IMG/VR virus record: IMGVR_UViG_3300042691_025071
Span: 124,001-188,000 of that record
From: a virus
Reading direction: 5' to 3' (one strand)
Length of the DNA: 64,000 nucleotides
Made by a program: the position numbers and the translations under genes
Notes under the pieces: model-generated
The model's input: only the letters and a program-made list of their open reading frames with translations
What the model was told of the DNA's origin: nothing
The model's database searches: none
Shown: one piece after another, positions 36,706 through 61,167 of the stretch
Layout of the letters: each line of letters begins with the position of its first letter
Numbering within the stretch: position 1 is the first letter of the stretch

Positions 36706-36742
36706 GTTAATAAAATTTAGAGTTTAATAATTAATGACATCA

Positions 36743-36774
36743 CAAATATACAACGGATAAAGTTATAATCCAAA
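36743..36774 (-). promoter_or_regulatory. Bacteroidota-type promoter
   Basis: TATATTTG with TTTGG upstream; drives the gene starting at 36705. Confidence 0.78.
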
Positions 36775-36836
36775 TATATTTTGTTAAAATTTTGCAAAAA
36801 TATTTTTGATCACGACCCCAGCCCGGCACGGTAAAA

Positions 36837-36875
36837 ATATTCTGTGGCGTAATACAAATGTCTGCCACAGAAAAT
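36837..36875. repeat. Intergenic inverted repeat, copy 1
   Basis: Arms TTCTGTGGC and GCCACAGAA around a 15-nt loop. A solitary extra right arm follows at 36972-36982. Confidence 0.85.
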
Positions 36876-37024
36876 CCATAGCTCTGAATCTGGCAACTTG
36901 CTCTGGTGTTGCTGCAACTTTTGCAACTTTTGCTATTTTCATAACTCATTGATAATCAATAAAACTATTCTGCCACAGAAATTCCACTGTGCTTTGCGCT
37001 GCGATCTGCTCTGGTAACAGCAAT

Positions 37025-37050
37025 AAAAAACCCACCATTTTACTGGTGGG
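37025..37050 (-). terminator. Intrinsic terminator
   Basis: CCCACCA/TGGTGGG stem followed on the minus strand by six T. Confidence 0.88.
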
Positions 37051-37072
37051 TTCTCTATCAAAACAAAAACTA

Positions 37073-37837
37073 CTAAACAACGAACTTGTAATCATCCTTT
37101 AACTTGTTTCTAACACTTTTATATTTCAAACCTACAATAACATTTTTTTCATCGTAGTATCTCATATCGTATTCATCCCCGTCAATAACTTTACGACCCC
37201 AGAAAGTTTCGGGTAATTCTTTTCTAAATACGACCGCCACTCTAACATCATTATTCAACATACTAATACAATCGGGAAAGTTATATCCACTAAATGAAAA
37301 TGTTAAATCGTAGTTATTGTACTTCTTTAACAATTCAATTCGTTTCGGAACTTTCGTGTAATCGTAAAATTTAACATCGGGGAAAATCTGTAATACATTT
37401 CTCACTTCTCCTTTATATGTCACATAAAAACTTTCGGGGGTTATATCTGATGTATTGTTTAAACGAACACTGAACTTGTGACCGAGTTTATCTGCCTTTT
37501 TCTTTGCGGTGTATATTTCATCTATCATCCAATTAACAAAAAATTCCCTGTGTTCAAAGAATAATTTCGTTTTTTTAATTCTAGATTCATTAATAACATC
37601 ACCCTTTACCTTCTGTGTCATTTTATTCATTCCCGATTCGTTCAAACATAGCAATGTACATTCTTCACTTCTCATAGGACAAACCTCATAACCACTTGAC
37701 TTTGCGGGTGCGAGGTATAAACTATAAGTAAGTTCATTGTACTTGTACGCCTTCTGATGTTTGGTAGTTAAGTTAACCGACCCCAGGTAACCGATACCCG
37801 TTAATTTTTTTGCTTGAGCTTTAGTTGTGTAAATCAT
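37073..37837 (-). CDS. GP88-family phage protein
   Basis: The ATG at 37837 is chosen since the promoter lies inside the longer frame. The 254 residues show the GP88 layout: YSLYLAPAKSSGYEVCPMRS, ECTLLCLNESG, a helix with RIKKTKLFFEHREFFVNWM, then FSVRLNNTSDITPESF. The spaced Cys residues suggest a metal or Fe-S site. Function unknown; common in large phages. Confidence 0.88.
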   Translation of the reverse strand: MIYTTKAQAKKLTGIGYLGSVNLTTKHQKAYKYNELTYSLYLAPAKSSGYEVCPMRSEECTLLCLNESGMNKMTQKVKGDVINESRIKKTKLFFEHREFFVNWMIDEIYTAKKKADKLGHKFSVRLNNTSDITPESFYVTYKGEVRNVLQIFPDVKFYDYTKVPKRIELLKKYNNYDLTFSFSGYNFPDCISMLNNDVRVAVVFRKELPETFWGRKVIDGDEYDMRYYDEKNVIVGLKYKSVRNKLKDDYKFVV

Positions 37838-37851
37838 AATTTTAATTTTTA

Positions 37852-37883
37852 CAAATATACAACTTATATATTTTGATTCCAAA
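37852..37883 (-). promoter_or_regulatory. Bacteroidota-type promoter
   Basis: TATATTTG with TTTGGAA upstream; drives the GP88-family gene. Confidence 0.8.
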
Positions 37884-37945
37884 TTTATTTTCGTTAAAGT
37901 TTAGTTAAGATATTATATCTAAAAATTTCAGGATCTGAACCAAGA

Positions 37946-37984
37946 ATTTTCTGTGGCGAGTATAGTTGATCCGCCACAGAAAAT
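37946..37984. repeat. Intergenic inverted repeat, copy 2
   Basis: Perfect 13-bp arms ATTTTCTGTGGCG and CGCCACAGAAAAT; loop has TTGATC next to the right arm. Confidence 0.9.
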
Positions 37985-38023
37985 CTCACCTGTTAATATG
38001 CAGATCGAGTGCACAAAAAGTGC

Positions 38024-38052
38024 ATAAAAAAAGGGGTACTAATTGTACCCCC
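38024..38052 (-). terminator. Intrinsic terminator
   Basis: GGGGTAC/GTACCCC stem followed on the minus strand by a run of T. Confidence 0.85.
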
Positions 38053-38071
38053 TTTCATTTGTCAAAAACTA

Positions 38072-38743
38072 CTAACTCTCAGCGACCAACAGATTTTTGT
38101 ACTCACTTTCCGTTAAGTGTCTTGTACTTTCCGACTTTACTTTCTTCCCTATCGGTTTAATCAACACACAATCTCCCTGTCTTACAATCTTCTCAATACA
38201 ACCTTCGGGAATGTCCGTTTGAATAGTCCAAGCAATTGCCTGAATTGCATTGACCTTTTTAATATCCCAATTCCAACCCTGACCATTTGTGTTTGCCACA
38301 CTTTTCATATCAACCCAAATGAAATACTCTCTGTCGGTACTTGTGTCCTTACACTTTACATAGTAACAATCATCAGGTTTTGACCAAGAATTACGAGCCT
38401 TACCGAAAACTTCCCCATTAACTTTGTAAAGTTCATAAGTGTCATTGAATTTTTTGGTAACAAGTTGTCCGTCTTGACTAACCCAAGTTGTTGTTTTCTT
38501 CAATGTTTTCTTATCAATCAATTCGGGTTTAATCTCTTTGACCAATCTATCTAACCCATAGTTCAACATAGCCACACGGCGTTGTTCCAAGTTCTCTAAT
38601 TGGGCTATCTCTTTGAAAGTAATCGGGGTAATATCTTCCCAAATATCTTCCAACTGACTGAAAGGACAATCTTTGTGTTTCACTTTCAAAATACGACAAC
38701 CAATGTCATACGGAAATTGTAAATTATTGATAACGATTTGCAT
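38072..38743 (-). CDS. Hypothetical protein (223 aa)
   Basis: MQIVINNLQFPYDIGCRILK..., with REYFIWVDMKSVANTNG and a C-terminal RHLTESEYKNLL. No domain recognised. Last gene of a four-gene unit. Confidence 0.7.
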   Translation of the reverse strand: MQIVINNLQFPYDIGCRILKVKHKDCPFSQLEDIWEDITPITFKEIAQLENLEQRRVAMLNYGLDRLVKEIKPELIDKKTLKKTTTWVSQDGQLVTKKFNDTYELYKVNGEVFGKARNSWSKPDDCYYVKCKDTSTDREYFIWVDMKSVANTNGQGWNWDIKKVNAIQAIAWTIQTDIPEGCIEKIVRQGDCVLIKPIGKKVKSESTRHLTESEYKNLLVAES

Positions 38744-38771
38744 AACTGATTTAATTTAATTTGTTAATAAT

Positions 38772-39452
38772 TTAATCTTCTTTGTAAATGATAAACGAAG
38801 TTCCAACAGATACCAACAACTTATCATCTTTGATAGTTAATTCTTCTCTATCATCTCCGTCATTTGTTGTGAAAGTATAGTAATCTTCTTTCTCCCCTTC
38901 ATCATAGGAAGGCTCAAAGTCTGCGGTTTCTTGTAATACAATTTCTTCCAATTCTCCCACCAACTTTTCTTGTTCGTCAGACATTATGAAATCTTTTTTG
39001 AAATTGATAGTACAATTCCCTTCTTCTCCGTTAATGTTACTAACATACTCCGAAACAAATTTAGACATCTTCTTTGATAATTTGATTTCCATTGTTTCTT
39101 CAATTCTCTCCGACCACTCACTTTTGGCACTTTTTGAATAAATGAAAGTATGTTCTTCTTCATCTTCATCACTATCATCTAATTCAATATAAACATTTCC
39201 GTGCTCCCCAATGTAGTGTCCGTCAGAGTTTACATAAAACTCAACTTCATCAAACACTTCTTTGTCAAAGTAACTTTCCAATTCGGGACTATTAACCTCA
39301 ATTTCTTCGGGGACATTCTTTTTCTTACTATCGTTTTTCTTGTAGAAAGTAAAGTGGTAGTCATTCATACTATCTCCACCACAACTGAACTCCATATTTG
39401 CGTGTGTAATACCTAACTCCTTCCAGAGTTTTACTGCTTCATTAGTTTGCAT
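38772..39452 (-). CDS. Conserved acidic phage protein (226 aa)
   Basis: HANMEFSCGGDSMNDYHFTF near the start and YVNSDGHYIGEHGNVYIEL are typical of a phage/plasmid family of unknown role (DUF6878-like layout). Very acidic in the middle (DDSDEDEEE). Overlaps the upstream gene by 11 nt. Confidence 0.7.
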   Translation of the reverse strand: MQTNEAVKLWKELGITHANMEFSCGGDSMNDYHFTFYKKNDSKKKNVPEEIEVNSPELESYFDKEVFDEVEFYVNSDGHYIGEHGNVYIELDDSDEDEEEHTFIYSKSAKSEWSERIEETMEIKLSKKMSKFVSEYVSNINGEEGNCTINFKKDFIMSDEQEKLVGELEEIVLQETADFEPSYDEGEKEDYYTFTTNDGDDREELTIKDDKLLVSVGTSFIIYKED

Positions 39453-39846
39453 AATCGTGTAATTTTTGATTTAAGTTTTTAACAATTTCGTACGCTTCGG
39501 GATTATCAACGGGCTTAACTCCATTATTCATCCAGGGTTGGACTTCTAAATGTTTAAGATAGTCCTGTGGTGTCGGTACAAACTTCATTCGGAAATCTTC
39601 TGCAATATGTAACATCGCAATATCTACAACATCAACGGACTTTCCGTCAGAATTAACAATGTTGTAACCAAAGATTTTCGGAACAATGTGGTATGCGAAC
39701 CAGGTATTGTGAGTAAGTAACCTCGCACTATTATTATTCATAGTCATTTTTGGACTATCAATAAGTTCGTGAATAGGTAAATAATCTTCTACCTTTCCAC
39801 CCCAGCGTTTAACACTGGATTTAGAATGAATTAACGGATTTGCCAT
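39442..39846 (-). CDS. Conserved phage protein (DUF6915-like)
   Basis: Start chosen at MANPLIHSKSSVKRWGG, giving 134 residues; a longer frame would overlap the upstream gene. The segments KVEDYLPIHELIDSPKM and LLTHNTWFAYHIVPKIFG are characteristic of a conserved phage family of unknown function. Confidence 0.78.
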   Translation of the reverse strand: MANPLIHSKSSVKRWGGKVEDYLPIHELIDSPKMTMNNNSARLLTHNTWFAYHIVPKIFGYNIVNSDGKSVDVVDIAMLHIAEDFRMKFVPTPQDYLKHLEVQPWMNNGVKPVDNPEAYEIVKNLNQKLHDYAN

Positions 39847-39872
39847 TTGAGTTGATTTAGTGTGTGAATAAA

Positions 39873-40142
39873 TTAGTCCCAAACTTGACTTACTGAACGA
39901 GAAAACGGATTGTACTCAACTTGTTTTCCCATAACCCAATTACCTTTGTCAATCTTTAAGGCTTGATGTTCGTTTGAGAAACTTCCGTCAGGTTGTTCGT
40001 GTTTTAATACACTATCCTTTGTTACTTCCAATGTTGCAAAGGACTTTTCTTCATCAATCTTAAACTCTCCGTAAAGAGTGTGTTGGTTTGCTCCCTCTCC
40101 TTTGAGTAGGGTGTGTTTTTGTTTTTTTACTTTACTTTTCAT
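39873..40142 (-). CDS. Hypothetical protein (89 aa)
   Basis: MKSKVKKQKHTLLKGEGANQ..., ending GKQVEYNPFSRSVSQVWD. First gene of the unit that also contains the three downstream genes. Function unknown. Confidence 0.7.
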   Translation of the reverse strand: MKSKVKKQKHTLLKGEGANQHTLYGEFKIDEEKSFATLEVTKDSVLKHEQPDGSFSNEHQALKIDKGNWVMGKQVEYNPFSRSVSQVWD

Positions 40143-40178
40143 TTGAAAAAGTTTTGAGTTAATAATTAAATGACATTA

Positions 40179-40211
40179 CAAATATACAACTTATTTCTTT
40201 GTATTTCCAAA
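40179..40211 (-). promoter_or_regulatory. Bacteroidota-type promoter
   Basis: TATATTTG with TTTGGAA upstream; drives the four-gene unit starting at 40142. Confidence 0.8.
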
Positions 40212-40285
40212 TTTATTTTGTTAAAATTTTCTTAACAGATATAAATAGTTTTACCCTGAAACTGTCCTGACCCCGGTCATCTGAA

Positions 40286-40323
40286 ATTTCTGTGGCGAGT
40301 GTGTTTAGTCTGCCACAGAATAT
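40286..40323. repeat. Intergenic inverted repeat, copy 3
   Basis: Nine-base arms TTCTGTGGC and GCCACAGAA, loop of 15 nt. Confidence 0.85.
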
Positions 40324-40361
40324 CTCACCTGTTGCGCACAGGACCAGCAAAGTTCAAGCAA

Positions 40362-40389
40362 CAAAAAACCCCAACATTATGTCGGGGTT
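40362..40389 (-). terminator. Intrinsic terminator
   Basis: CCCCaAC/GTcGGGG stem followed on the minus strand by six T. Confidence 0.85.
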
Positions 40390-40416
40390 AAAAAGGTACA
40401 GATTAGGTTTCTCATA

Positions 40417-40752
40417 TTATCTCTTTCTAAATTGAGAAAATGTTTGATACGCACCAAACTGACGCCACCTATTTAATTCATTGTTCTTTTGAATACAAAG
40501 GTCTTTCGCCCAAGTATAAACCAATTCAGTTTCTTCAAAGGTTTCAAAGTTCCTTTTAATATGTTCCTCTAATAAGGAACACGCCCTCATCCACTTATAG
40601 TATTGTTTATCATCAATCCTTGTATTAACCCATTCATCTGATACTCTACCACAATCCTCTCTTTTAATGTGTTTCCACTTATCAATGATGGCGTCGAAAT
40701 CTACTTTATCGAATTGACTTTGAACAACTTTTGCTATGTGGTGTGCGGTCAT
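40417..40752 (-). CDS. Hypothetical protein (111 aa)
   Basis: Helical basic protein (MTAHHIAKVVQSQFDKVDFD). Last gene of an eight-gene unit; overlaps the upstream stop by 4 nt. Unrecognised. Confidence 0.68.
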   Translation of the reverse strand: MTAHHIAKVVQSQFDKVDFDAIIDKWKHIKREDCGRVSDEWVNTRIDDKQYYKWMRACSLLEEHIKRNFETFEETELVYTWAKDLCIQKNNELNRWRQFGAYQTFSQFRKR

Positions 40753-40979
40753 ATAACTTCGTTTAATAATTCTTGATACTGACTTTGTATTTTATCAAAG
40801 TTATCGGTGTAATGTTTCAACAACATTTTACTTTGTTCTTCTAACAAACCATTAACAATCTTTGGGGTTTTTACTTTAAGAATTGTTTTGTTAAATGATT
40901 TGATTTCTACTCCACCCTCTAAATCAAAGATAACTTTTACAAAGTTCTCACTCCATTCTCTAAATGTTAAAATTTCCAT
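40749..40979 (-). CDS. Hypothetical protein (76 aa)
   Basis: MEILTFREWSENFVKVIFDL..., one beta-alpha unit and a long helix. Overlaps the next gene by 4 nt. Function unknown. Confidence 0.66.
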   Translation of the reverse strand: MEILTFREWSENFVKVIFDLEGGVEIKSFNKTILKVKTPKIVNGLLEEQSKMLLKHYTDNFDKIQSQYQELLNEVI

Positions 40980-40980
40980 A

Positions 40981-42461: not shown

Positions 42462-42872
42462 TTAAACATTTGTTAAAGTCTCTCTATCACTCCAAGTATA
42501 TCCAACTCCCTTAATTGTTCTAATTGGAATTGTTGGAAATTTATTTCTAATTCTCCTGATGTGAACATCAATAGTTCTGTTTATTACAATCACATCATCT
42601 TCCCAAATTTTATTTAGTATCTTATCTCTATTCAATACCTTGTTTTTATTTTCCATAAGGTAATGAATAATCAAAAATTCTTTTTTTGGTAGGTTGTGTT
42701 TTTTATCGTCAATAGTTATTTGTCTGGTTTCCATATCGGCAACAAACCCACAACTTTCAACTCTATGAGTTTCTTCTTTTTTATTATACTTCTCAATGAC
42801 TTCAATAATTTCTTCTATTGAGTAGGTTTCTTTTCCTCTCCACTTCAATTCCGATTTAATCATTTCAATCAT
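42462..42872 (-). CDS. OmpR/PhoB-type winged-helix protein without receiver domain
   Basis: The ATG at 42872 is fixed by a promoter just upstream. The 136 residues have a short N-terminal helical part, then a full Trans_reg_C domain: PKKEFLIIHYLMENKNKVL, then RDKILNKIW, RTIDVHIRRIRNKF (recognition helix) and IRTIKGVGYTW (wing). No phosphoacceptor receiver is present. It is a likely transcription regulator of phage or host genes and the only clear helix-turn-helix regulator in the cassette array. Confidence 0.9.
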   Translation of the reverse strand: MIEMIKSELKWRGKETYSIEEIIEVIEKYNKKEETHRVESCGFVADMETRQITIDDKKHNLPKKEFLIIHYLMENKNKVLNRDKILNKIWEDDVIVINRTIDVHIRRIRNKFPTIPIRTIKGVGYTWSDRETLTNV

Positions 42873-42884
42873 AATGTTTTTTTT

Positions 42885-42917
42885 CAAATATACAATATAA
42901 TACTTTCTATTTCCAAA
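42885..42917 (-). promoter_or_regulatory. Bacteroidota-type promoter
   Basis: TATATTTG with TTTGGAA upstream; drives the winged-helix gene. Confidence 0.8.
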
Positions 42918-42954: not shown

Positions 42955-42968
42955 GCCACAGAAAATTT
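42955..42968. repeat. Intergenic inverted repeat, copy 4 (right arm only)
   Basis: GCCACAGAAAATTT preceded by TGATCCT; the left arm is missing although a terminator and a promoter flank it as usual. Confidence 0.75.
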
Positions 42969-45536: not shown

Positions 45537-45575
45537 ATATTCTGTGGCAAGTGTGTCGATCCTGCCACAGAAAAT
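45537..45575. repeat. Intergenic inverted repeat, copy 5
   Basis: Arms TTCTGTGGCA and TGCCACAGAA; CGATC in the loop next to the right arm. Confidence 0.88.
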
Positions 45576-45905: not shown

Positions 45906-46367
45906 TTAATATCTTGTTTGAAATTCTAATAAAACTCTATTGTTCCAATCCTTACCACTTTGACATAAACACGACCTACGAACATGCTTTAGTTTTAATC
46001 TTGCCTTTTCGTGTTTTCTACCACAAGCACCACATACCGCGTAATACTTCATTTCGGGTGTGTTTGTGTCGTCACTATCATAACATCTTTCGGGTTTTGC
46101 ACCAATCTGAACACAAATATCTTTCCACTTTTGCCCGTGTCCTACACCAGGTCCCGCAAGTGCGTGTGCAATTTCGTGCAGTATTGTGTCCTTAACTTGT
46201 TCCACATTATTTACCTCAACCAATTTCCTTGACAACCCAATATACTTTCTACCTTGACTACAACAACCGAACCTCCTCAATGAATTATCCCACTTAAAAC
46301 TCCAACCACGTAAATTGTGTTTGTGCATCAAAGATAGTGTGAGTTTCTCAGCTTTGTCTAAATTCAT
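45906..46367 (-). CDS. SprT-like zinc metallopeptidase
   Basis: The 153 residues have a SprT domain: LRGWSFKWDNSLRRFGCC, DTILHEIAHALAGPGVGHG (HExxH plus third His) and a C-terminal zinc ribbon (CGACGRKHEKARLK with a later SCLC). SprT/Spartan proteases cut DNA-protein crosslinks; phage versions may clear proteins from DNA. Coupled to neighbours on both sides. Confidence 0.93.
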   Translation of the reverse strand: MNLDKAEKLTLSLMHKHNLRGWSFKWDNSLRRFGCCSQGRKYIGLSRKLVEVNNVEQVKDTILHEIAHALAGPGVGHGQKWKDICVQIGAKPERCYDSDDTNTPEMKYYAVCGACGRKHEKARLKLKHVRRSCLCQSGKDWNNRVLLEFQTRY

Positions 46368-46865: not shown

Positions 46866-46915
46866 AAATTTCTGTGGCGAGTCGTTTCCCCTGTAATTTT
46901 CTTGCCACAGAAAAT
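46866..46915. repeat. Intergenic inverted repeat, copy 6
   Basis: Arms TTTCTGTGGC and GCCACAGAAA, loop 25 nt. Confidence 0.88.
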
Positions 46916-48320: not shown

Positions 48321-48369
48321 ATATTATGTGGCAAGTCACTTTGTGTCATACGATTTTGCCACAGAAAAT
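48321..48369. repeat. Intergenic inverted repeat, copy 7
   Basis: Arms ATTATGTGGCAA and TTGCCACAGAAAAT with one mismatch; the loop contains GTCATACGA. Confidence 0.85.
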
Positions 48370-49219: not shown

Positions 49220-49282
49220 TAATTTATGTTAAAGTTTTCTTAATGAATTTACTGAAGGAGGAGGTGATCCGGATCAGGAAAA

Positions 49283-49322
49283 TATTTTGTGGCAACAATA
49301 GTACGGATTTGCCACAGAAAAT
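49283..49322. repeat. Intergenic inverted repeat, copy 8
   Basis: Arms TTTTGTGGC and GCCACAGAA (one wobble); a perfect TGATCCGGATCA palindrome lies just outside the left arm. Confidence 0.83.
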
Positions 49323-50120: not shown

Positions 50121-50159
50121 TTTTTTTGTGGCATGTAATACGGATCTGCCACGGAAAAT
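50121..50159. repeat. Intergenic inverted repeat, copy 9
   Basis: Arms TTTTTTTGTGGCA and TGCCACGGAAAAT; loop TGTAATACGGATC. Confidence 0.82.
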
Positions 50160-50943: not shown

Positions 50944-51231
50944 TTAAAACCCCCACTCACGAGGACAAGGAGGTAAAGTTTTGAACTCATTAAAAACTAC
51001 AACACTATCACCAACCTTAAAATCAACTATTCCACGATGACGATACCAAACATTATTAGTACCCCTAACAAAATTTCCGAGATATGTATAAACAATTCTT
51101 TCTACTTTTATATTAACACTATCTTTTAAGTCAATATCTAAATTTGAAAGGTTAAATTTCACATTACACTCTTTTTGAACTGAACAACTGAAAAGAAAAA
51201 CAACAAATGATATTACAAATAACTTTTTCAT
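50944..51231 (-). CDS. Lipoprotein (95 aa)
   Basis: Signal peptide with lipobox LFSC (MKKLFVISFVVFLFSCSVQK), then a beta-rich domain (YLGNFVRGTNNVWYRHRG) ending PPCPREWGF. Single-gene unit. Confidence 0.76.
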   Translation of the reverse strand: MKKLFVISFVVFLFSCSVQKECNVKFNLSNLDIDLKDSVNIKVERIVYTYLGNFVRGTNNVWYRHRGIVDFKVGDSVVVFNEFKTLPPCPREWGF

Positions 51232-51606: not shown

Positions 51607-51639
51607 CAAATATACGAAATAAAATCTTATATTTCCAAA
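51607..51639 (-). promoter_or_regulatory. Bacteroidota-type promoter
   Basis: TATATTTG with TTTGGAA upstream; drives the membrane protein gene starting at 51576. Confidence 0.8.
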
Positions 51640-51795: not shown

Positions 51796-51835
51796 TTTTT
51801 TTATGGCGAGTGTAATACGATCAGCCACAGAAATT
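51796..51835. repeat. Intergenic inverted repeat, copy 10
   Basis: Arms TTTATGGC and GCCACAGAAA (wobble and one mismatch); loop TGTAATACGATCA. Confidence 0.78.
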
Positions 51836-51936: not shown

Positions 51937-52482
51937 CTATTGTGTAAGGTACAACCTATTATTATTGTAATACCCTATCGGGTTAGTTTCGGAAAATTTA
52001 CCATATTCCTTTGTAACTTTTTTGTGAATTACCGAAACATTGTCATTGATATACTTTGAGAGAATGTTTGAGAATGTATCATTACTTTCCGTTACAATAT
52101 CTTGTGGAGAGGGTACACCACAATACTCACTTTCTCCGACTTCGGAAATAAACATACCACTGAAAAACCCTTTGAGGTTATGTTTACGAACAAACTTGTC
52201 CGCGTTACACCATATAAAGATATTTTCAGTTTTCTCACTCAACACATCAACAAAGGTTTCGTCAATGATAAACCCCCAACTACTTTTGAATTGACCTACG
52301 GACATCAACCCATTGGGAGTTCCGTGTCCACACATAATAACCCTATCAAAGTCCTTTATCATTTCCCTAACTTCATCTTTTGAGTACCCACCACTAATAA
52401 CAACCTTATCGGGTATGTTTTGGTAAAATACACTTAAAAAATCAGTCGTTCTGTCTTTCGGGTGAATAATTAAAGTTTTCAT
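51937..52482 (-). CDS. Caspase/CHAT-like putative cysteine peptidase, copy 2
   Basis: The 181-residue paralogue of the gene at 13885. Identical landmarks: MKTLIIHPKDRTTDFLS, VIMCGHGTPNGLMSVGQF (His), NIFIWCNADKFV (Cys), LKGFFSGMFISEVGESEYCG and a final YYNNNRLYLTQ. By eye about half the residues agree. The two genes are about 38 kb apart on opposite strands and in different promoter classes, so they may act at different stages. Protease activity is inferred from fold motifs. Confidence 0.62.
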   Translation of the reverse strand: MKTLIIHPKDRTTDFLSVFYQNIPDKVVISGGYSKDEVREMIKDFDRVIMCGHGTPNGLMSVGQFKSSWGFIIDETFVDVLSEKTENIFIWCNADKFVRKHNLKGFFSGMFISEVGESEYCGVPSPQDIVTESNDTFSNILSKYINDNVSVIHKKVTKEYGKFSETNPIGYYNNNRLYLTQ

Positions 52483-52658: not shown

Positions 52659-52699
52659 AAATTTCCGTGGCGTCCATAAACCGATCCGCCAGATAAATT
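52659..52699. repeat. Intergenic inverted repeat, copy 11
   Basis: Arms AATTTCCGTGGC and GCCAGATAAATT, imperfect; loop has CGATCC. Confidence 0.75.
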
Positions 52700-53563: not shown

Positions 53564-53610
53564 AATTTTTGTGGCTTCTGTAATACGAATACCGATCTGC
53601 CACGTAAAAT
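53564..53610. repeat. Intergenic inverted repeat, copy 12
   Basis: Arms ATTTTTGTGGC and GCCACGTAAAAT; loop TGTAATACGAATACCGATCT. Followed at 53619-53644 by a 26-nt block repeated at 55394-55419. Confidence 0.82.
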
Positions 53611-54542: not shown

Positions 54543-54591
54543 AAATTTCCGTGGCTCCTGTAATACGAATACCGATCCGCCAGAGAAATTT
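54543..54591. repeat. Intergenic inverted repeat, copy 13
   Basis: Arms AAATTTCCGTGGC and GCCAGAGAAATTT with wobble and a mismatch; loop TGTAATACGAATACCGATCC. Confidence 0.78.
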
Positions 54592-54683: not shown

Positions 54684-55211
54684 TTATCTACCTACCACCA
54701 CATATTCCGTTCCGTTTAGTGTCATTTCCTCAATGGAAGATACCATAAACGATTGTGGTTTGTGTTTGTTCTCTTGTGGTTGTCTTGAACTCTCCGACCT
54801 CTTTACCTCATAACTACGGAACAACTCTCTCTCAATACTATCTCCCTCATAGGTAAATTCACTCTTGATGTTACTTGTAGGGAAGATGAAGTATTGAAGA
54901 TAGTACCTCTGTAAGTTCTCATTATACTGAACACACTTGGTAATATGTTCTCCGACTGAACATTCTTGACTTTCAAAATTAGGTTCAATACCCTCTTTCA
55001 CACAACGAGTGTTTACCATATCCTCATAACTACCACCGATGAAGTAGTTACCTTTTGAGTGTTTGGTAACTTTATCAAAATACGGATTACCACCTTTATT
55101 CATTCTCACTTTGGTTTTAGATACAATGTGAGTGAATGTAGGTTTGTCAATACTCATTAAGATAATTAACAACTCTCTTTCTGTTACAAATACTCTTTGT
55201 TTCTGTTTCAT
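54684..55211 (-). CDS. Paralogue of the 61.2-kb protein (175 aa)
   Basis: Shares with the + strand gene at 61224: ELLIILMSIDKPTFTHIVSK, then TKVRMNKGGNPYFDKV, a Cys/Tyr-rich centre, ESSRQPQE and SSIEEMTLNGTEYVV. The conserved TKVRMNK and SSRQPQE motifs suggest nucleic-acid contact; a widespread phage family of unknown function. Confidence 0.78.
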   Translation of the reverse strand: MKQKQRVFVTERELLIILMSIDKPTFTHIVSKTKVRMNKGGNPYFDKVTKHSKGNYFIGGSYEDMVNTRCVKEGIEPNFESQECSVGEHITKCVQYNENLQRYYLQYFIFPTSNIKSEFTYEGDSIERELFRSYEVKRSESSRQPQENKHKPQSFMVSSIEEMTLNGTEYVVVGR

Positions 55212-55344: not shown

Positions 55345-55385
55345 AATTTTCTTTGGCTTGTAGGTTGACCTGAGCCAGAGAAAAT
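55345..55385. repeat. Intergenic inverted repeat, copy 14
   Basis: Arms ATTTTCTTTGGCT and AGCCAGAGAAAAT: both arms changed from the consensus yet still pair (one wobble). Confidence 0.85.
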
Positions 55386-55771: not shown

Positions 55772-55822
55772 AAATTTCCGTGGCTTGTGAGGTTGACCTG
55801 AATACGATCAGCCACAAAAAAT
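55772..55822. repeat. Intergenic inverted repeat, copy 15
   Basis: Arms AAATTTCCGTGGC and GCCACAAAAAAT; loop ends ATACGATCA. Confidence 0.8.
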
Positions 55823-56792: not shown

Positions 56793-56841
56793 AAATTTCT
56801 TTGGCGTCTAACTTCCTGTAATACGATCAGCCACAGAAAAT
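56793..56841. repeat. Intergenic inverted repeat, copy 16
   Basis: Arms ATTTCTTTGGC and GCCACAGAAAAT with one wobble; loop TGTAATACGATCA. The spacer at 56858-56878 carries part of the GGTGAACACGGAG block. Confidence 0.82.
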
Positions 56842-56936: not shown

Positions 56937-57140
56937 CTACTCTGTGTCAATAATGACGAATTGGTCTTCTTCGGGTATAACCGATAAACTTCTTCCGTTA
57001 TCCCATTTGACTTGATATTGATTTAACCCATCAACTCCGATAATTGTACCCATTGTGTTTGGTTCAATAGGTTGAGGGTCATCCATAAAAATCATCATAA
57101 TTCTTTTTCCGATTAGTTCAGTTCTTAATTGTAAATTCAT
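56937..57140 (-). CDS. DUF4314 family protein
   Basis: The 67 residues match DUF4314: LIGKRIMMIFMDDPQPIEPN, then TMGTIIGVDGLNQYQVKWDN and GRSLSVIPEEDQFVII. A small SH3-like beta-barrel protein widespread in phages; function unknown. Confidence 0.92.
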   Translation of the reverse strand: MNLQLRTELIGKRIMMIFMDDPQPIEPNTMGTIIGVDGLNQYQVKWDNGRSLSVIPEEDQFVIIDTE

Positions 57141-57160
57141 AGTGAGTGGGTTTAGTTAAA

Positions 57161-57192
57161 CAAATATACAACAATAAATATTATATTTCAAA
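57161..57192 (-). promoter_or_regulatory. Bacteroidota-type promoter
   Basis: TATATTTG with TTTG upstream; drives the DUF4314 gene. Confidence 0.78.
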
Positions 57193-57212
57193 TCTAAAAT
57201 GTTAAAAAAAAT

Positions 57213-57240
57213 AAAAAACCCGATGTAAAAACATCGGGTT
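57213..57240 (-). terminator. Intrinsic terminator
   Basis: CCCGATGT/ACATCGGG stem, T-run on the minus strand; no inverted repeat before the next promoter. Confidence 0.9.
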
Positions 57241-57256
57241 AAAACCAACCATACTA

Positions 57257-57394
57257 CTAATAAGGTTTGTTAATTCTTTTCATCAATCCACCCCAACTTT
57301 CTTTCCCCTTACAACCATACCCACTTGTTTTACAAGAGGACATTGTTAATGATACAAGAACGATAACTACGATAACTGAATAAATCTTTTTCAT
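57257..57394 (-). CDS. Tiny lipoprotein (45 aa)
   Basis: Signal peptide with lipobox SSC (MKKIYSVIVVIVLVSLTMSS, then C), mature part GYGCKGKESWGGLMKRINKP. The start context and cassette position match the other lipoprotein units. Confidence 0.73.
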   Translation of the reverse strand: MKKIYSVIVVIVLVSLTMSSCKTSGYGCKGKESWGGLMKRINKPY

Positions 57395-57417
57395 AATGTT
57401 TTTTTTAATTATTTATA

Positions 57418-57449
57418 CAAATATACAACATATACATACTTATTCCAAA
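57418..57449 (-). promoter_or_regulatory. Bacteroidota-type promoter
   Basis: TATATTTG with TTTGGAA upstream; drives the lipoprotein gene starting at 57394. Confidence 0.8.
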
Positions 57450-57500
57450 TTTTTTTTGTTAAAATTTTGTGAAGGTGAATTCGGATCACCTTCCATCCTG

Positions 57501-57549
57501 AAATTTCTATGGCTTGTCGGTTTCTCTAATAGGATCAGCCACAAAAAAT
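57501..57549. repeat. Intergenic inverted repeat, copy 17
   Basis: Arms AAATTTCTATGGC and GCCACAAAAAAT; loop ends GGATCA. Confidence 0.78.
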
Positions 57550-57552
57550 GTC

Positions 57553-57585
57553 CACCAGCGAATCTGGTGAACACGGAGGTCTGTG
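57553..57585. repeat. Spacer repeat CACCAGCGAATCTGGTG, copy 1
   Basis: A hairpin (CACCAG/CTGGTG) followed by AACACGGAG; near-identical blocks at 58926, 59713 and 60322, and a 3' fragment at 56858. Confidence 0.88.
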
Positions 57586-57591
57586 ACTTGA

Positions 57592-57620
57592 CAAAAAAAA
57601 TCCCCAACTTTCGTTGAGGA
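57592..57620 (-). terminator. Intrinsic terminator
   Basis: TCCCCAAC/GTTGAGGA stem, T-run on the minus strand. Confidence 0.88.
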
Positions 57621-57647
57621 CTTTTCGTTCACAATTAAAACCAAACA

Positions 57648-57989
57648 CTACTTAATTTTCAATTCGGTGTATCGGTAACCTTGACCAATCATACCCAAAG
57701 CGTCGTGATAAGCCAAAGACATTGCGTGGTGTCTTTCATCTGACGTTTTAGAATTTTTACAACCAAATTGTATCCCCCAAGTTAACATACATTCAATACC
57801 ATAATCAACATCAAAGTATTGTCGTGTTTTTTCGAGTGAGGGTTTGTGTACTACTTTCTTTTTCCAACTTTCAGGTAAATGTGTCAAATACACAAAATAC
57901 ATCATTAAGGCGTTTTGTGTGGGCTTACCATTCTTTGACCAAAAACCTTTCGGAAACATTTTTCCATTACATTCATTTTGTTCTTTCAT
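57648..57989 (-). CDS. Hypothetical protein (113 aa)
   Basis: Start at MKEQNECNGKMFPKGFWSKN, behind the promoter. TQNALMMYFVYLTHLPESWK and CMLTWGIQFGCKNSKTSDER. Four Cys suggest a metal site; unrecognised. Confidence 0.7.
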   Translation of the reverse strand: MKEQNECNGKMFPKGFWSKNGKPTQNALMMYFVYLTHLPESWKKKVVHKPSLEKTRQYFDVDYGIECMLTWGIQFGCKNSKTSDERHHAMSLAYHDALGMIGQGYRYTELKIK

Positions 57990-58020
57990 TTGATATAAAT
58001 TTAATTTGTTAGATAATACA

Positions 58021-58052
58021 CAAATATACAACTTATATTTTTTGATTCCAAA
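58021..58052 (-). promoter_or_regulatory. Bacteroidota-type promoter
   Basis: TATATTTG with TTTGGAA upstream; drives the gene starting at 57989. Confidence 0.8.
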
Positions 58053-58095
58053 TTTATTTTTCAAAACCATATTCATACCTGTCGTCCTGGTAAAC

Positions 58096-58143
58096 TTTTT
58101 TTATGGCGAGTGGGTTTCTGTAATACGGATCGCCACAGAAAAA
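58096..58143. repeat. Intergenic inverted repeat, copy 18
   Basis: Arms TTTTTTTATGGCG and CGCCACAGAAAAA; loop TGTAATACGGAT. Confidence 0.8.
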
Positions 58144-58194
58144 GGTGTAATCCCAGCTCGAACCGCGATTCAAGTTTTGTGTAATACCACAAAT

Positions 58195-58220
58195 AAAAAA
58201 ACCACCCCTTTCGGAGTGGT
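58195..58220 (-). terminator. Intrinsic terminator
   Basis: ACCACcCC/GGaGTGGT stem, same as at 43008. Confidence 0.87.
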
Positions 58221-58243
58221 TTCGTTCACAATTAAAACTACAA

Positions 58244-58438
58244 CTATCTTTTAGAAATTCGTTTGTCAAAGTAACATAAGACCACCGATAACACAACGGA
58301 TAAAGACATCATAACCAAGAAAATGTTGTTAATGATTGTTAGGTAGTTATCTTCCAAGTTGTTGAAGTAAAACATAACAACCAACCCAACCATAATTGTC
58401 AAGTGAAAACCGAGAATAGAACTGAAAAACTTTTTCAT
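58244..58438 (-). CDS. Two-helix membrane protein (64 aa)
   Basis: Start at MKKFFSSILGFHLTIMVGLV; two membrane helices and a basic tail (CYFDKRISKR). Unknown role. Confidence 0.7.
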   Translation of the reverse strand: MKKFFSSILGFHLTIMVGLVVMFYFNNLEDNYLTIINNIFLVMMSLSVVLSVVLCYFDKRISKR

Positions 58439-58462
58439 AATTTTTGTTTTTAATTGTTTATA

Positions 58463-58494
58463 CAAATATACAACTTATACCGAGTAAAACCAAA
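58463..58494 (-). promoter_or_regulatory. Bacteroidota-type promoter
   Basis: TATATTTG with TTTGG upstream; drives the gene starting at 58438. Confidence 0.8.
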
Positions 58495-58495
58495 T

Positions 58496-58750
58496 TTATT
58501 TTGTTAAACTTTTCTTAATGAATGACCTAACCACTATCAACCCAATCAAAGTAACAACTGACCAAACCCAAGTCCACATAACATACCAACCCGAATTTCC
58601 TTTATCCCAAAGGTGTTCATAATCGTACAACCCATCCTCATCCCAAGTAGTAGGTTCCGCCCCCAACATCATAAGTGTTAATAAACCGATAAAACAACCG
58701 AGAAGAAAACCAATGTTTTCAATTCTGTTAATTAGTTTGTTTTTGTCCAT
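58496..58750 (-). CDS. Two-helix membrane protein (84 aa)
   Basis: NKLINRIENIGFLLGCFIGL, a polar loop with EDGLYDYEHLWDKGNSGWYV, then a second helix and a Lys-rich end. Loop placement suggests periplasmic exposure. Unknown role. Confidence 0.72.
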   Translation of the reverse strand: MDKNKLINRIENIGFLLGCFIGLLTLMMLGAEPTTWDEDGLYDYEHLWDKGNSGWYVMWTWVWSVVTLIGLIVVRSFIKKSLTK

Positions 58751-58773
58751 TGTAGTATGTTTTAATTGTTTAA

Positions 58774-58805
58774 CAAATATACATCATTAAACCTTATATT
58801 CCAAA
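58774..58805 (-). promoter_or_regulatory. Bacteroidota-type promoter
   Basis: TATATTTG with TTTGGAA upstream; drives the gene starting at 58750. Confidence 0.8.
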
Positions 58806-58866
58806 TTTATTTTGTTAATCTATTGTTAAAGAGTTTCACTGGTGGAAACCTGGATCTGAACCAAAA

Positions 58867-58922
58867 AATTTATGTGGCGTGTAATACCACCTTTATCTGT
58901 AATACGATCCGCCACATAAATT
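58867..58922. repeat. Intergenic inverted repeat, copy 19
   Basis: Perfect 12-bp arms AATTTATGTGGC and GCCACATAAATT. Compared with consensus TTTCTGTGGC/GCCACAGAAA a C-G pair is replaced by A-T on both sides. Confidence 0.92.
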
Positions 58923-58925
58923 CAC

Positions 58926-58959
58926 CACCAGCGAATCTGGTGAACACGGAGTTCTGTGG
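58926..58959. repeat. Spacer repeat CACCAGCGAATCTGGTG, copy 2
   Basis: Same block as at 57553, ending GTTCTGTGG. Confidence 0.9.
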
Positions 58960-58964
58960 AAAAA

Positions 58965-58993
58965 CAAAAAACCCCCGACTTTTGTCGAGGGTT
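58965..58993 (-). terminator. Intrinsic terminator
   Basis: CCC.CCGAC/GTCGAGGG stem, T-run on the minus strand. Confidence 0.88.
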
Positions 58994-59013
58994 TCTGTAT
59001 TACGATTTCGTGA

Positions 59014-59352
59014 TTAGTGTTTGTAAATCGGTATTCGTTCGATTTTATCATCTATCCTTTCGGTGAGTTCGTCAAAATAGACCAAGTGTTGTTCATCTTT
59101 GACTTTACCATTGTTTGATACATAAAACACCGAGTAAGTGTCTGTAAAACCGAGTGTGATGATTACCCAACCTTTGTGGTGATGTCCTGATACTTTCAAA
59201 CATAACCCCTTATTAAACATATTAAGGAGTTTAGATACACCCCAAGACCAATATGTTGTTCTGTTGTGGGTTAATACTTGTAAGGTTTCTTGTGGGTTAA
59301 ATTCCCTTTCACCTTTTTCCGATACGAAGTTGTGTAGTTGTTCGTGTGTCAT
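59014..59352 (-). CDS. Hypothetical protein (112 aa)
   Basis: MTHEQLHNFVSEKGEREFNP..., with YWSWGVSKLLNMFNKGLCLK and HHHKGWVIITLGFTDTYSVF. A conserved phage-like layout; function unknown. Second gene of its unit. Confidence 0.72.
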   Translation of the reverse strand: MTHEQLHNFVSEKGEREFNPQETLQVLTHNRTTYWSWGVSKLLNMFNKGLCLKVSGHHHKGWVIITLGFTDTYSVFYVSNNGKVKDEQHLVYFDELTERIDDKIERIPIYKH

Positions 59353-59364
59353 AGTTGGTAGTTA

Positions 59365-59544
59365 TTAAATGTTTGAGAGAAAAATGTCCATCATAAAGAG
59401 AGTGAATGTCATCATTGTCAAACCGAATAAAACACGAAGAAAAATGTTTGAGATTTTGTCATTCCTCATATAGTGAGAGAATAACATTGTTAACCCCATT
59501 AGTCCGAGTGTAAGGAGAAGGAGTGTGAGAGTGATTTTGTCCAT
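59365..59544 (-). CDS. Two-helix membrane protein (59 aa)
   Basis: MDKITLTLLLLTLGLMGLTM, a short loop HYMRNDK and a second hydrophobic helix. Directly behind a promoter. Function unknown. Confidence 0.66.
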   Translation of the reverse strand: MDKITLTLLLLTLGLMGLTMLFSHYMRNDKISNIFLRVLFGLTMMTFTLFMMDIFLSNI

Positions 59545-59567
59545 TGTAGTAGTTTTTAATTGTTTAT

Positions 59568-59600
59568 CAAATATACGACATTATACCTTATATTTCCAAA
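59568..59600 (-). promoter_or_regulatory. Bacteroidota-type promoter
   Basis: TATATTTG with TTTGGAA upstream; drives the two genes starting at 59544. Confidence 0.8.
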
Positions 59601-59660
59601 TTTTTATTGTTAAAATGTTGTTAACGAATTTTCCCCGTGAACCGCTGTTGCGATCAGGAT

Positions 59661-59709
59661 AATTTTCCATGGCGAGTAGGTTAATCTGTACCTATCCGCC
59701 ACAAAAAAT
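59661..59709. repeat. Intergenic inverted repeat, copy 20
   Basis: Arms AATTTTCCATGGCG and CGCCACAAAAAAT, imperfect. Confidence 0.75.
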
Positions 59710-59712
59710 ATC

Positions 59713-59742
59713 TACCAGCGAATCTGGTGAACACGGAGTTCT
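59713..59742. repeat. Spacer repeat [C/T]ACCAGCGAATCTGGTG, copy 3
   Basis: Same block as at 58926, slightly shorter. Confidence 0.88.
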
Positions 59743-59744
59743 AA

Positions 59745-59771
59745 CAAAAAACCCCCGATACTATCGGAGGT
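59745..59771 (-). terminator. Intrinsic terminator
   Basis: CC.CCCGATA/TATCGGAGG stem, T-run on the minus strand. Confidence 0.85.
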
Positions 59772-59796
59772 TTAATGTTTTGAGTGGAGTGTGAAG

Positions 59797-60078
59797 TTAC
59801 TTAATCATTGAGTGTATTTGTTTCCAATACTTTGGGAGTTTCTGACCACATTTAGTGAGGTGTTTCTCGTTTAAGTGATTACCACCCTTTATCCATTTCG
59901 CACAATAGGAGAGATACCGACTATCCGATGAATTAAAACCAACCCCATTCTCTTTGATTGTTTCGTTTGTGATTTGTTCTTCGGTAGTTTGGAGGTTATG
60001 TAAGACAACCAACGCTCTTTCTATCCATTTAGGGTTTCTTGACAAGTTCATTTTGATTTCTTCTTTTGTGTAAGACAT
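59797..60078 (-). CDS. Hypothetical protein (93 aa)
   Basis: Start at MSYTKEEIKMNLSRNPKWIE; the longer frame begins in the promoter. RALVVLHNLQTTEEQITNET and GFNSSDSRYLSYCAKWIKGG form a layout common to phage proteins that I cannot name. Confidence 0.75.
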   Translation of the reverse strand: MSYTKEEIKMNLSRNPKWIERALVVLHNLQTTEEQITNETIKENGVGFNSSDSRYLSYCAKWIKGGNHLNEKHLTKCGQKLPKYWKQIHSMIK

Positions 60079-60099
60079 AACTTTGAAAGTTTGTTTCGT

Positions 60100-60132
60100 C
60101 AAAGTTAACCAATTTATACCCTTATATCCAAA
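60100..60132 (-). promoter_or_regulatory. Bacteroidota-type promoter (variant)
   Basis: TAACTTTG with TTTGGAT upstream; drives the gene starting at 60078. Confidence 0.72.
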
Positions 60133-60196
60133 TTTATTTTGTTAAAGTTTTGTGAATGTGTAATACGATGACACGACAGGTGATCCGGGATTATGG

Positions 60197-60258
60197 AATT
60201 TCCTTGGCGTGTAACCTCCTGTAATACCCCTATTATGTAAGACAACCGCCACAGAAAT
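60197..60258. repeat. Intergenic inverted repeat, copy 21
   Basis: Arms ATTTCCTTGGCG and CGCCACAGAAAT with a long loop of 37 nt containing TGTAATACC. Confidence 0.8.
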
Positions 60259-60321
60259 ATTTTCGCATGCGGTGTCCCCAACCACATCTTCTAACTGGTT
60301 CTACAAGCCAAAGAAATTTAC

Positions 60322-60355
60322 CACCAGCGAATCTGGTGAACACGGAGTTCTGTGG
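60322..60355. repeat. Spacer repeat CACCAGCGAATCTGGTG, copy 4
   Basis: Same block as at 58926. Confidence 0.9.
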
Positions 60356-60359
60356 GAAA

Positions 60360-60387
60360 TAAAAAACCCCAACATTTCTGTTGAGGT
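60360..60387 (-). terminator. Intrinsic terminator
   Basis: CCCCAAC/GTTGAGG stem, T-run on the minus strand. Confidence 0.87.
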
Positions 60388-60409
60388 TTCGTTTCAGTTT
60401 CCAACCCGA

Positions 60410-60784
60410 TTAACTTATCATTATCATTCGTTCAGGGTTATATCCATTTTCCACAAAGAATTTATTTCTTTCGTATTCATCTTGTCCAACTATCTTTTTC
60501 ACGATTTGATGAAATTCGTAGAAGGAGATTTCATCAAACATTTCAAACACCAACTTTTGAAGTTTGGAGTAGTCAGTCAGGACATTTGATTTACACCCCA
60601 TAAGGTAACGGAAGTTCATCTGTTGTTTGGTAAACGAACAAGGAGTTGTACCGATGAATTTGGAGAGTTCTTCTTCGGTTTTCAAATGAATGTACCGAGT
60701 ACCGAATTTGGTAACATAAAAGTTCAGGATTAAGTCATTGTCAGTCCAATGATGAAGTCCGAGTGTGAGAGTTCTTTTTAACAT
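60410..60784 (-). CDS. Hypothetical protein (124 aa)
   Basis: MLKRTLTLGLHHWTDNDLIL..., with EEELSKFIGTTPCSFTKQQM and NFRYLMGCKSN. No family assigned. Last minus-strand gene of the array, with own promoter and terminator. Confidence 0.7.
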   Translation of the reverse strand: MLKRTLTLGLHHWTDNDLILNFYVTKFGTRYIHLKTEEELSKFIGTTPCSFTKQQMNFRYLMGCKSNVLTDYSKLQKLVFEMFDEISFYEFHQIVKKIVGQDEYERNKFFVENGYNPERMIMIS

Positions 60785-60814
60785 AGTAGTAGAGTTTTAA
60801 CTTGTGAACGATAT

Positions 60815-60842
60815 ACAAATATACACCTTATACACCCCAAAA
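60815..60842 (-). promoter_or_regulatory. Bacteroidota-type promoter
   Basis: TATATTTG with TTTTGG upstream; drives the gene starting at 60784. Confidence 0.75.
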
Positions 60843-60909
60843 CAATCAACCCGAATGTTAATGTTATGTTAAAGAATTTTACGGGTAAACCCCGGATCAC
60901 CCGGAAAAC

Positions 60910-60996
60910 TTTTTCTCTGGCTCATAATAACTTTAACTTTTTATTAACAAATAATTTCGTACCTTTGTGGTTTTTTTCCTACACGCCACAGAAAAT
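60910..60996. repeat. Intergenic inverted repeat, copy 22, with promoter in its loop
   Basis: Arms TTTTTCTCTGGC and GCCACAGAAAATC enclose 63 nt that contain a complete + strand promoter (ending TACCTTTG at 60960-60967). The loops of other copies are 15-40 nt. Confidence 0.82.
60930..60968 (+). promoter_or_regulatory. Promoter repeat 1 (39 nt)
   Basis: ACTTTAACTTTTTATTAACA then AATAATTTCGTACCTTTGT; a second copy differing at two positions is at 61053-61091. No ORF follows directly. Confidence 0.7.
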
Positions 60997-61052
60997 CCAA
61001 ACCTTCACGGGTTCACCTCCAAATTTTTTTTCTTAAAATTTTGTTAACGAAA

Positions 61053-61091
61053 ACTTTAACTTTTTATTAACAAATAATTTTGTATCTTTGT
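61053..61091 (+). promoter_or_regulatory. Promoter repeat 2 (39 nt)
   Basis: Second copy with TATCTTTG as -7 box (61083-61090), followed by a solitary repeat arm CGCCACGAAAAA at 61099-61110. Confidence 0.72.
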
Positions 61092-61167
61092 AGGTTCTCG
61101 CCACGAAAAAAGTCACCCCGAACCTTCACCCCCGAAATGTTAAAGTTTTGTTAAAGGGAAAAAAAAA

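Follow-up and report, generated by a model that had tools for sequence, protein, structure and literature searches.

Introduction

Cassettes of the type called PeSL, reportedly described by Arbiol in 2010 and by Comeau in 2014, belong to T4-like phages, while among partition systems the parS site of P1 combines a ParB-type protein with inverted boxes that flank an IHF bend, and N15 provides a case of dispersed centromeres in a phage. Passages of PMC4503421 describe the repeated promoter-terminator motifs of the PeSL cassettes as homology for the gain and loss of genes. In plasmid RK2, KorB, a member of the ParB family, is portrayed in an excerpt of PMC11790492 as silencing promoters from operators that lie either 4-10 bp or 45 to >1,000 bp upstream, and the ParB-CTPase fold occurs in bacteria, archaea, phages and eukaryotes according to a summary passage of a survey (PMC12704722). 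The stoperators of mycobacteriophage L5, more than 20 regulator sites of which many are intergenic, are presented in a section of PMC9283540 as single asymmetric 13-mers with a monomer as their presumed binder. Here we analyze an array of minus-strand transcription units in a 64,000-base stretch of phage DNA (the window, bases 124001-188000 of the 208,497-base virus record IMGVR_UViG_3300042691_025071) that combines features of these systems, with an inverted repeat (IR) placed between terminator and promoter at most of its gene junctions.

Our preferred explanation, which in our judgement stands at an even chance, is that each IR is a bipartite operator on duplex DNA that is bound by a protein dimer or higher oligomer and serves a common transcriptional control, the best candidate for the binder being a ParB-like protein encoded within the array.

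Census of promoters, terminators and inverted repeats

The minus-strand promoters of the array are near-identical from 60132 to 36774 and consist of TTTGG, 19-20 nt and TAnnTTTG or a close variant. We count 32 of them, of which the pattern recovered 31 and visual inspection a weaker one at 57191; the count does not include another promoter-like segment near 60.85 kb. On the minus strand of the window the pattern is matched 33 times, twice outside the array, and on the plus strand it has no match inside the array. The initial annotation, which had proposed a near-identical promoter ahead of each minus-strand unit, is borne out in this respect.

Between 60259 and 36837 there are 20 full IRs with arms like ATTTTCTGTGGC/GCCACAGAAAAT (Table 1). 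Individual arms depart from this pattern by up to 5-6 bases in 24. With at most 4 mismatches in the 24 arm bases, 19 places in the array are matched against none in 100 dinucleotide shuffles, so that the palindromes do exceed random expectation in the kind of shuffle comparison that had been suggested; with at most 5, there are 22 places, counted per left arm with overlapping combinations included, against a shuffle mean of 0.09 and a maximum of 1. At this latter setting the rest of the window contains no IR, and the record outside the window none except for one match with five mismatches.

The 32 junctions fall into three classes: terminator, IR and promoter in 20 cases, a promoter alone in eight, and terminator and promoter without a full IR in four. 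The last class comprises the promoters at 57191, 51291, 50923 and 42917, each with a terminator-like hairpin, and the interval at 42917 contains one lone arm. All 20 IRs are found within the 24 terminator-bearing intervals (hypergeometric p 5e-5, for terminators chosen by hand from the scan output). An independent terminator scan of 41.5-61.0 kb returned 34 terminator-like sites where 8.9 were expected; the weak terminator at 50949 is missing from it. At all six junctions that had been named as devoid of both terminator and repeat the two elements are indeed missing. Terminator and IR are not invariably coupled, the full IR being absent from four of the 24 terminator intervals. Between the IR at 51835 and the promoter at 51639, we also note a promoter-like stretch with a terminator (51780-51672, minus strand), perhaps a short RNA or the remnant of a deletion.

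Along the direction of transcription, a module is made up of the terminator, a GC-richer segment of ~30-45 nt, the left arm, the spacer, the right arm, a further stretch, an A/T-rich stretch and the promoter. IR and promoter are usually 40-100 bp apart, and in the window the right arm ends 61-66 bases before the -33 box in 14 of 20 IRs. The 45-base flanks of the modules have a GC content of 44% and mostly no notable fold. They have in common the words CAGCTC or GAGCTG, GCGCAA or TTGCGC, and CGGATC, all of them enriched in modules compared to the remainder of the record, in which GCGC and AGCT are scarce. A sequence resembling E. coli Chi, GCTGGTGG, is present in some flanks. As the sites are located just past a terminator, usually at the stated distance before a promoter and within one accessory-gene array, common control is a likely function.

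Relatives carrying the inverted repeat

Related loci were gathered by protein and pattern searches, and near-identical loci were removed before the IR, spacing, distance and arm tests. The IR type is present in 17 of 96 distinct loci, the window and 16 others; locus L047 passed the automatic rule for IR presence, was judged a chance match and is counted as negative. The 79 loci without the IR stem from a DUF6915 search (36), a GP88 search (20) and the pattern searches (23, most of them chance matches), and one of the latter, L029, shares its contig with the IR-bearing locus L028. After de-duplication, 47 loci bear DUF6915, 11 with and 36 without the IR. The initial annotation had named the same genes in related phages without the repeats at their junctions as speaking against its module; for the DUF6915 gene, relatives lacking such repeats are common and make up 36 of these 47 loci.

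The arm cores vary from phage to phage. The window has CTGTGGC, most others have GTTTGGC, GATTGGC, GGTTGGC or GAATGGC, GTGGGGC also occurs, and the arms of L147 are TTAGTGGGGCAA. When inverted 7- and 8-mers were searched for without prior assumptions, the same motifs ranked first in several relatives. As in the window, the sites cluster in one array each in four further large records, with 9/11 matches within 219-235 kb in G002, 10/11 within 106-123 kb in G003, 23/24 within 91.7-114 kb in G004 and 13/13 within 236-262 kb in G005, while the same finder gave 3 and 9 scattered or unlike matches in the IR-negative records G011 and G012.

In four phages, L018, L117, L114 and L030, three of which are related in DNA, a single half-site core precedes the -33 box by at most 40 nt at 43 of 73 promoters, with ~6 expected. 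These promoter-proximal half-sites occur in one orientation only, with none in the other; they were found by a core-motif scan and had been missed by the strict half-site matrix. The half-site is tied to promoters, not to cassette borders alone. Five promoters of another phage, L141 (6919, 8074, 9538, 9889, 10223), have a short palindrome, TTTGGAAAAGTG-AA-AACTTTTCCT or close to it, over the -33 box region, an operator layout unlike the IRs.

Two probable half-sites rather than a stem-loop

An IR might equally act as a stem-loop, either in RNA (a read-through transcript, a small RNA or a processing site) or as extruded single-stranded DNA in the manner of attC or REP elements. The arms are complementary, with ~10 of 12 positions paired, some window modules fold strongly (z -5.3 at 59709 and -5.6 at 58922), and in the window alone, with G.U pairs counted, pairing is slightly above that of reshuffled arms (p 0.049). 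However, across 131 elements (16 phage loci and L029) the arms form 10.10 Watson-Crick pairs, compared to 10.06 with right arms reshuffled within each phage, and 32% of the shuffles reach the observed value. A smaller set of 81 elements, with three overlapping or duplicate elements dropped from the test, yields 9.95 pairs against 10.09 after reshuffling, and no compensatory base-pair changes between the arms were detected in either set. The 249 arm mismatches (T.T 82, A.A 74, A.C 30, T.C 24, G.T 22) show no bias toward G.U, and the prevalence of T.T and A.A fits a pair of half-sites, as each arm would follow its own motif with free A/T positions. The mean fold z of the 20 window modules is weak at -1.9 (-1.4 for the other strand), the IR modules have no match in Rfam at gathering score, the IR is situated past one terminator and before the next promoter in an array that lacks plus-strand promoter matches, and a hairpin loop is not expected to show the helical periodicity described below. 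We have dropped the RNA or single-stranded DNA hairpin on the grounds of arm independence and weak flank structure and regard it as highly improbable.

As the arms are independent and their spacing follows the helical repeat, the IR looks like two half-sites on duplex DNA and not like a hairpin, as far as its sequence reveals. Among the roles that the initial annotation had offered for the palindrome, that of a protein-binding site gains support and that of an insulator is possible, while the small RNA is left unsupported.

Helical spacing and a bend motif

The spacers measure 15-17, 23-26, 32 or 39 nt in the window and cluster near 4, 15, 25, 36 and 46 nt in the family, with a full range of 3-49 nt. 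When periods from 6 to 16 bp are scanned for 131 spacers, the Rayleigh Z peaks at 10.75 bp (33.5, with 32.4 at 10.5 bp), and after merging similar sequences the remaining 61 non-redundant spacers peak at 10.5 bp with a Z of 16.1 that 0 of 2,000 smoothed nulls reach; note that the elements are not fully independent and the size of Z is not to be taken literally. The main tests of spacing and arms exclude the relative L147, which is treated separately below.

The motif WATCAANNNNTTR is the E. coli IHF consensus. Among the spacers of 10-39 nt to which the test was confined, 40 measure 31-39 nt and 12 of these contain it (mean 0.17 and maximum 2 after letter shuffling), a fraction that overstates independence since several of these spacers are from related phages, and for a consensus that may not be that of the host. 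It is found in 0 of 66 spacers of 10-30 nt and in no window spacer tested, and no member of the HU/IHF family PF00216 was found in the record. A second motif, GTATTAC, is present in 35 of 106 tested spacers with fewer than one expected, and in the window 28 of its 30 copies lie within 36.0-61.5 kb.

Cassette shuffling and the role of recombination

The genes that related phages have in common differ in their order. A block of four genes (39873-39442-38772-38072) has varying neighbours, and IRs bound it in all six phages checked (the window, L015, L016, L019, L033 and L036). Between L117 and L018, four of at least seven indels were examined by eye. Each of them has module homology at its ends, which lies in promoter regions for three and in the terminator, left flank and half-site for the fourth. 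Several modules of the window are ~68-76% alike over 150-280 bp (25 of 32 matches listed). The modules act as homology for gene gain and loss. The proposal that they carry genes as cargo is supported by the shuffled genes and the IR-bounded block, but not in its strict form of inseparable elements, given the four terminator-promoter junctions without a full IR.

These same observations, the reshuffled gene order with cassette borders that match modules, the similarity among window modules and the indel ends, would suit an IR that is mainly a recombination site for moving cassettes and is conserved for that role. Yet three of the four indels end at promoter regions and not at the IR, half-sites also stand alone at promoters, and neighbours are conserved within a unit (32/53) only somewhat more often than across an IR (34/89; Fisher p 0.015, for counts that are not independent), the kept within-unit pairs being mostly those of the four-gene block. 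Site-specific recombination sites need a fixed crossover spacer between their inverted arms; the IRs, with spacers that vary over the entire range of 3-49 nt, have none and are unsuited to a site-specific recombinase, and the record contains no PF00589 integrase, serine and HUH enzymes not having been part of that search. The palindrome as point of exchange, suggested by the initial annotation, thus finds no backing, and we consider recombination as its main role improbable. Cassettes would instead shuffle by homologous recombination through the repeated promoter, terminator and flank sequence, a process that does not require exchange to take place at the IR.

Candidate binding proteins

Sequence models do not readily classify the ParB-like protein of the array. 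No Pfam model matches at 0.001 and no NCBIfam model at 0.1, PF02195 is below cut-off or absent, and the L018 copy matches TIGR00180 at an E-value of 0.005 only. A profile of 13 sequences searched against the PDB retrieved sulfiredoxin (6ky4, E 8.2e-4) and ParB (4umk, E 8.9e-4). The predicted structure has a mean pLDDT of 86.6, and in a Foldseek search with this model the best 22 matches were all ParB, KorB, Noc, Spo0J or PadC, with a top E-value of 6.6e-4. In VIA-align, residues 11-104 superimpose on ParB (7bnr) with Z 11.5 over 89 residues, residues 11-203 on KorB (8qa9) with Z 10.4 over 160 residues and an rmsd of 4.2, and residues 8-200 on Noc (7nfu) with an rmsd of 5.2. As evidenced by the model, the protein is predicted to have the ParB N-terminal fold, with room for fold families beyond those among the listed structure matches.

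In relatives of at least 10 kb, to which the association tables refer, a close homologue (>=35% identity) is present in 10/11 IR-positive and 0/47 IR-negative cases; a broader table (0/55) mixes in non-relatives, and 0/47 is the figure to use. In whole records the ParB-like profile matched 8/10 IR-positive and 4/10 IR-negative ones, the latter more weakly, with a profile that itself includes three IR-negative sequences. From sequence and modelled fold, we propose with low to moderate confidence that this protein binds the half-sites.

Several findings weigh against the preferred explanation. The promoter-proximal half-sites are confined to one phage group: in seven other phages including the window they occur at 2/114 promoters, a count in which L147 and L028 are not included and the window was scored with its own core. 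The spacers of L147 advance in 10 bp steps in another phase, unless each of its arms is read 2 bases longer, and a few of them misfit the stepping. Over the family the distance between IR and promoter is not periodic (100 distances, Z 4.5 at 10.5 bp and a top value of 7.0 at 9.5; for 36 of 145 elements no promoter was found, and 9 distances exceeding 100 were excluded), and we have abandoned the helical promoter phasing that the window series of 43, 52, ~62 and 73 had made suggestive. Concerning the ParB-like protein, the Foldseek matches have low TM-scores, 0.25-0.38 by query length, and just one of them has an E-value below 0.001, remote homologues occur in 5/47 IR-negative relatives, and no such protein was detected in L147/G004 (168 kb, the most divergent arms) or G010 (55 kb), both of them possibly incomplete. 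The window and L015 versions of the protein share 84% identity, and yet the arms differ. As controls, the DUF932 gene of the array shows the same split of 10/11 against 0/47, which is due in part to its use as a search query, and genes 50260 and 46364 give 10/11 against 4/47 and 10/11 against 11/47, respectively. As other array genes yield the same or nearly the same split, the ParB-like gene is not specifically linked to the IR, and its association may reflect common descent. This lack of specificity has lowered our confidence from slightly better than even to even for the explanation as a whole, and from doubtful to slightly more doubtful for the reading of the array as a common switch.

The evidence for sites on duplex DNA suits any dimeric regulator, and dispersed operators of another protein, be it the PhoB-type domain encoded in the array, a phage protein yet to be recognised or a host factor, are a serious contender, if short of an even chance. 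The PhoB-type gene (PF00486, E 1.8e-20) is itself preceded by the lone half-site, 37 nt ahead of its promoter; the ParB-like protein was not found in G004, and another array gene is associated with the IR at least as strongly. On the other hand, PF00486 is present in just 2 of 20 phage records searched, both IR-positive, with a homologue in L015 as well, and we have rejected the PhoB-type gene as the general binder for this narrow distribution. A conserved small protein, L008:18196-18390, was not confirmed as a ribbon-helix-helix protein in a PF01402 scan, and the protein past the array end was set aside for want of an informative fold match.

The ParB-type fold, the many sites in one region of 16-26 kb and the IHF-type motif in spacers, which recalls P1 parS, would also be in line with a phage centromere or nucleoid-organising region that serves partition or DNA packing and not gene control. 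We hold this to be improbable as well, as the sites are found at terminator/promoter junctions in 20/20 cases, single half-sites accompany promoters in one phage group, and nothing points to a plasmid-like stage.

In the bipartite operator model, the half-site would be a phage-specific unit of 12-14 bp, two inverted copies of which form an IR and are kept on the same face of the helix by spacers of whole turns. A protein dimer or higher oligomer would probably grip both halves and bend or loop the spacer, with the IHF-type motif possibly assisting the bend in some long spacers, and the bound sites would provide common control, in the form of repression, insulation or timed release, of the downstream cassette. 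The ParB/KorB/Noc-fold protein could act in a dispersed operator system of KorB or parS type, and by analogy with KorB would load at each cassette border and act on the promoter that follows. Extended to a family of large phages, a ParB/KorB-type protein on ~10-24 phased bipartite sites would constitute one switch or insulator for a shuffled accessory island, under which any gene captured between a terminator and an IR-promoter would fall and whose site specificity would drift among phages, a generalization that we consider doubtful.

Table 1. Positions in the window of the array, its inverted repeats and genes of interest.
Feature	Position	Strand	Remark
Array of minus-strand transcription units	36740..61110	-	~32 promoters; full IRs of the record only here
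IR	60197..60259	-	spacer 39; extra arm at 60318, a three-arm variant
IR	59662..59709	-	spacer 24
IR	58867..58922	-	spacer 32
IR	58096..58143	-	spacer 24
IR	57502..57549	-	spacer 24
IR	56794..56841	-	spacer 24
IR	55773..55822	-	spacer 26
IR	55346..55385	-	spacer 16
IR	54544..54590	-	spacer 23
IR	53564..53610	-	spacer 23
IR	52660..52699	-	spacer 16
IR	51796..51835	-	spacer 16
IR	50121..50159	-	spacer 15
IR	49282..49322	-	spacer 17
IR	48321..48369	-	spacer 25
IR	46867..46915	-	spacer 25
IR	45537..45575	-	spacer 15
IR	40285..40323	-	spacer 15
IR	37946..37984	-	spacer 15; perfect arms
IR	36837..36875	-	spacer 15; extra arm at 36983-36972
Lone half-site	42955..42966	-	between terminator 43015 and promoter 42917
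Predicted ParB/KorB/Noc-fold protein, 247 aa	43059..43802	-	candidate binder of the half-sites
PhoB/OmpR-type DNA-binding domain, no receiver domain matched	42462..42878	-	rival candidate binder
Four-gene cassette including DUF6915 protein	38072..40142	-	together and IR-bounded in 6 phages checked
159-aa protein past the array end	33565..34041	-	homologues in many IR-positive phages; no informative fold match

Source record and probable host

Among the genes of the record are those for a DNA polymerase, a DnaB-like helicase, an SbcC-like protein and a ribonucleotide reductase. The window is matched at 100% identity over the compared stretches by four other records, of which one measures 286,785 bases; the sole exception is ~160 bases at 30.5-30.7 kb that are missing from one of the four. 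The near-identical record L069 is without these bases (30525-30685), close to one of two single half-site-like sequences that occur outside the array (30503-30514 and 30990-31001). The array itself has no megablast match among 50,697 phage records.

A DUF6915 search of 84,980 species genomes found one relative of the protein, on a 5.5 kb contig named Bacteroidota bacterium that shows no clear IR by a rough pattern. The minus-strand promoters of the record, with TTTG at -33 and TAnnTTTG at -7, are of the Bacteroidota type. Because of this promoter type and the DUF6915 relative, the host is probably a Bacteroidota bacterium.

Other genes in the window include one for a SprT-like metalloprotease (45906-46367, minus strand; PF10263, E 1.3e-12) and a paralogous pair with the motif 'MKTLI.HPKD', at 51937-52482 (minus strand) in the array and 13876-14433 (plus strand) outside. 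The genes at 54684-55211 (minus strand) and 61200-61742 (plus strand) are apparent paralogues by eye; the latter, at the head of the array, is divergently transcribed from its own promoter at 61168.

Comparison with known systems

If true, the bipartite operator explanation would join gene-shuffling promoter/terminator cassettes with the dispersed operators of the ParB family and account for the way in which large phages subject a fast-changing set of accessory genes to a single control. Such arrays could be spotted in other phages by means of the spacing rule. A limited search of the open-licence PMC literature, at the level of titles and the beginnings of abstracts, returned no account of such paired sites in phage cassette arrays.

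Like the PeSL cassettes, the array has repeated promoter and terminator modules between small genes, and gene content and order are shuffled at its motifs among relatives. It differs in the addition of a bipartite IR with 12-14 bp half-sites and helical spacing between terminator and promoter, and in promoters of the TTTG/TAnnTTTG type, whereas PeSL cassettes are known from T4-like phages. With the KorB system, as excerpted in its source, it has in common a ParB-family protein, in the array a predicted one, and dispersed sites near promoters, and the proximal and distal placement of operators there can be compared to the single half-sites near the -33 box and the IRs, mostly 40-100 bp upstream; OB, on the other hand, is described as one 16 bp site, while the half-sites of the array are parted by 3-49 bp. 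P1 parS and N15 likewise unite a ParB-type protein, inverted boxes, an IHF bend and dispersed phage sites, but the array has ~20 copies at gene junctions. The L5 stoperators, in the passages that describe them, resemble the array in that a phage regulator site is present in more than 20 copies, many in intergenic spaces, and differ from it in that the sites described here are inverted pairs between terminator and promoter. The individual parts of the array thus resemble known kinds, and it is their combination that appears to be new.

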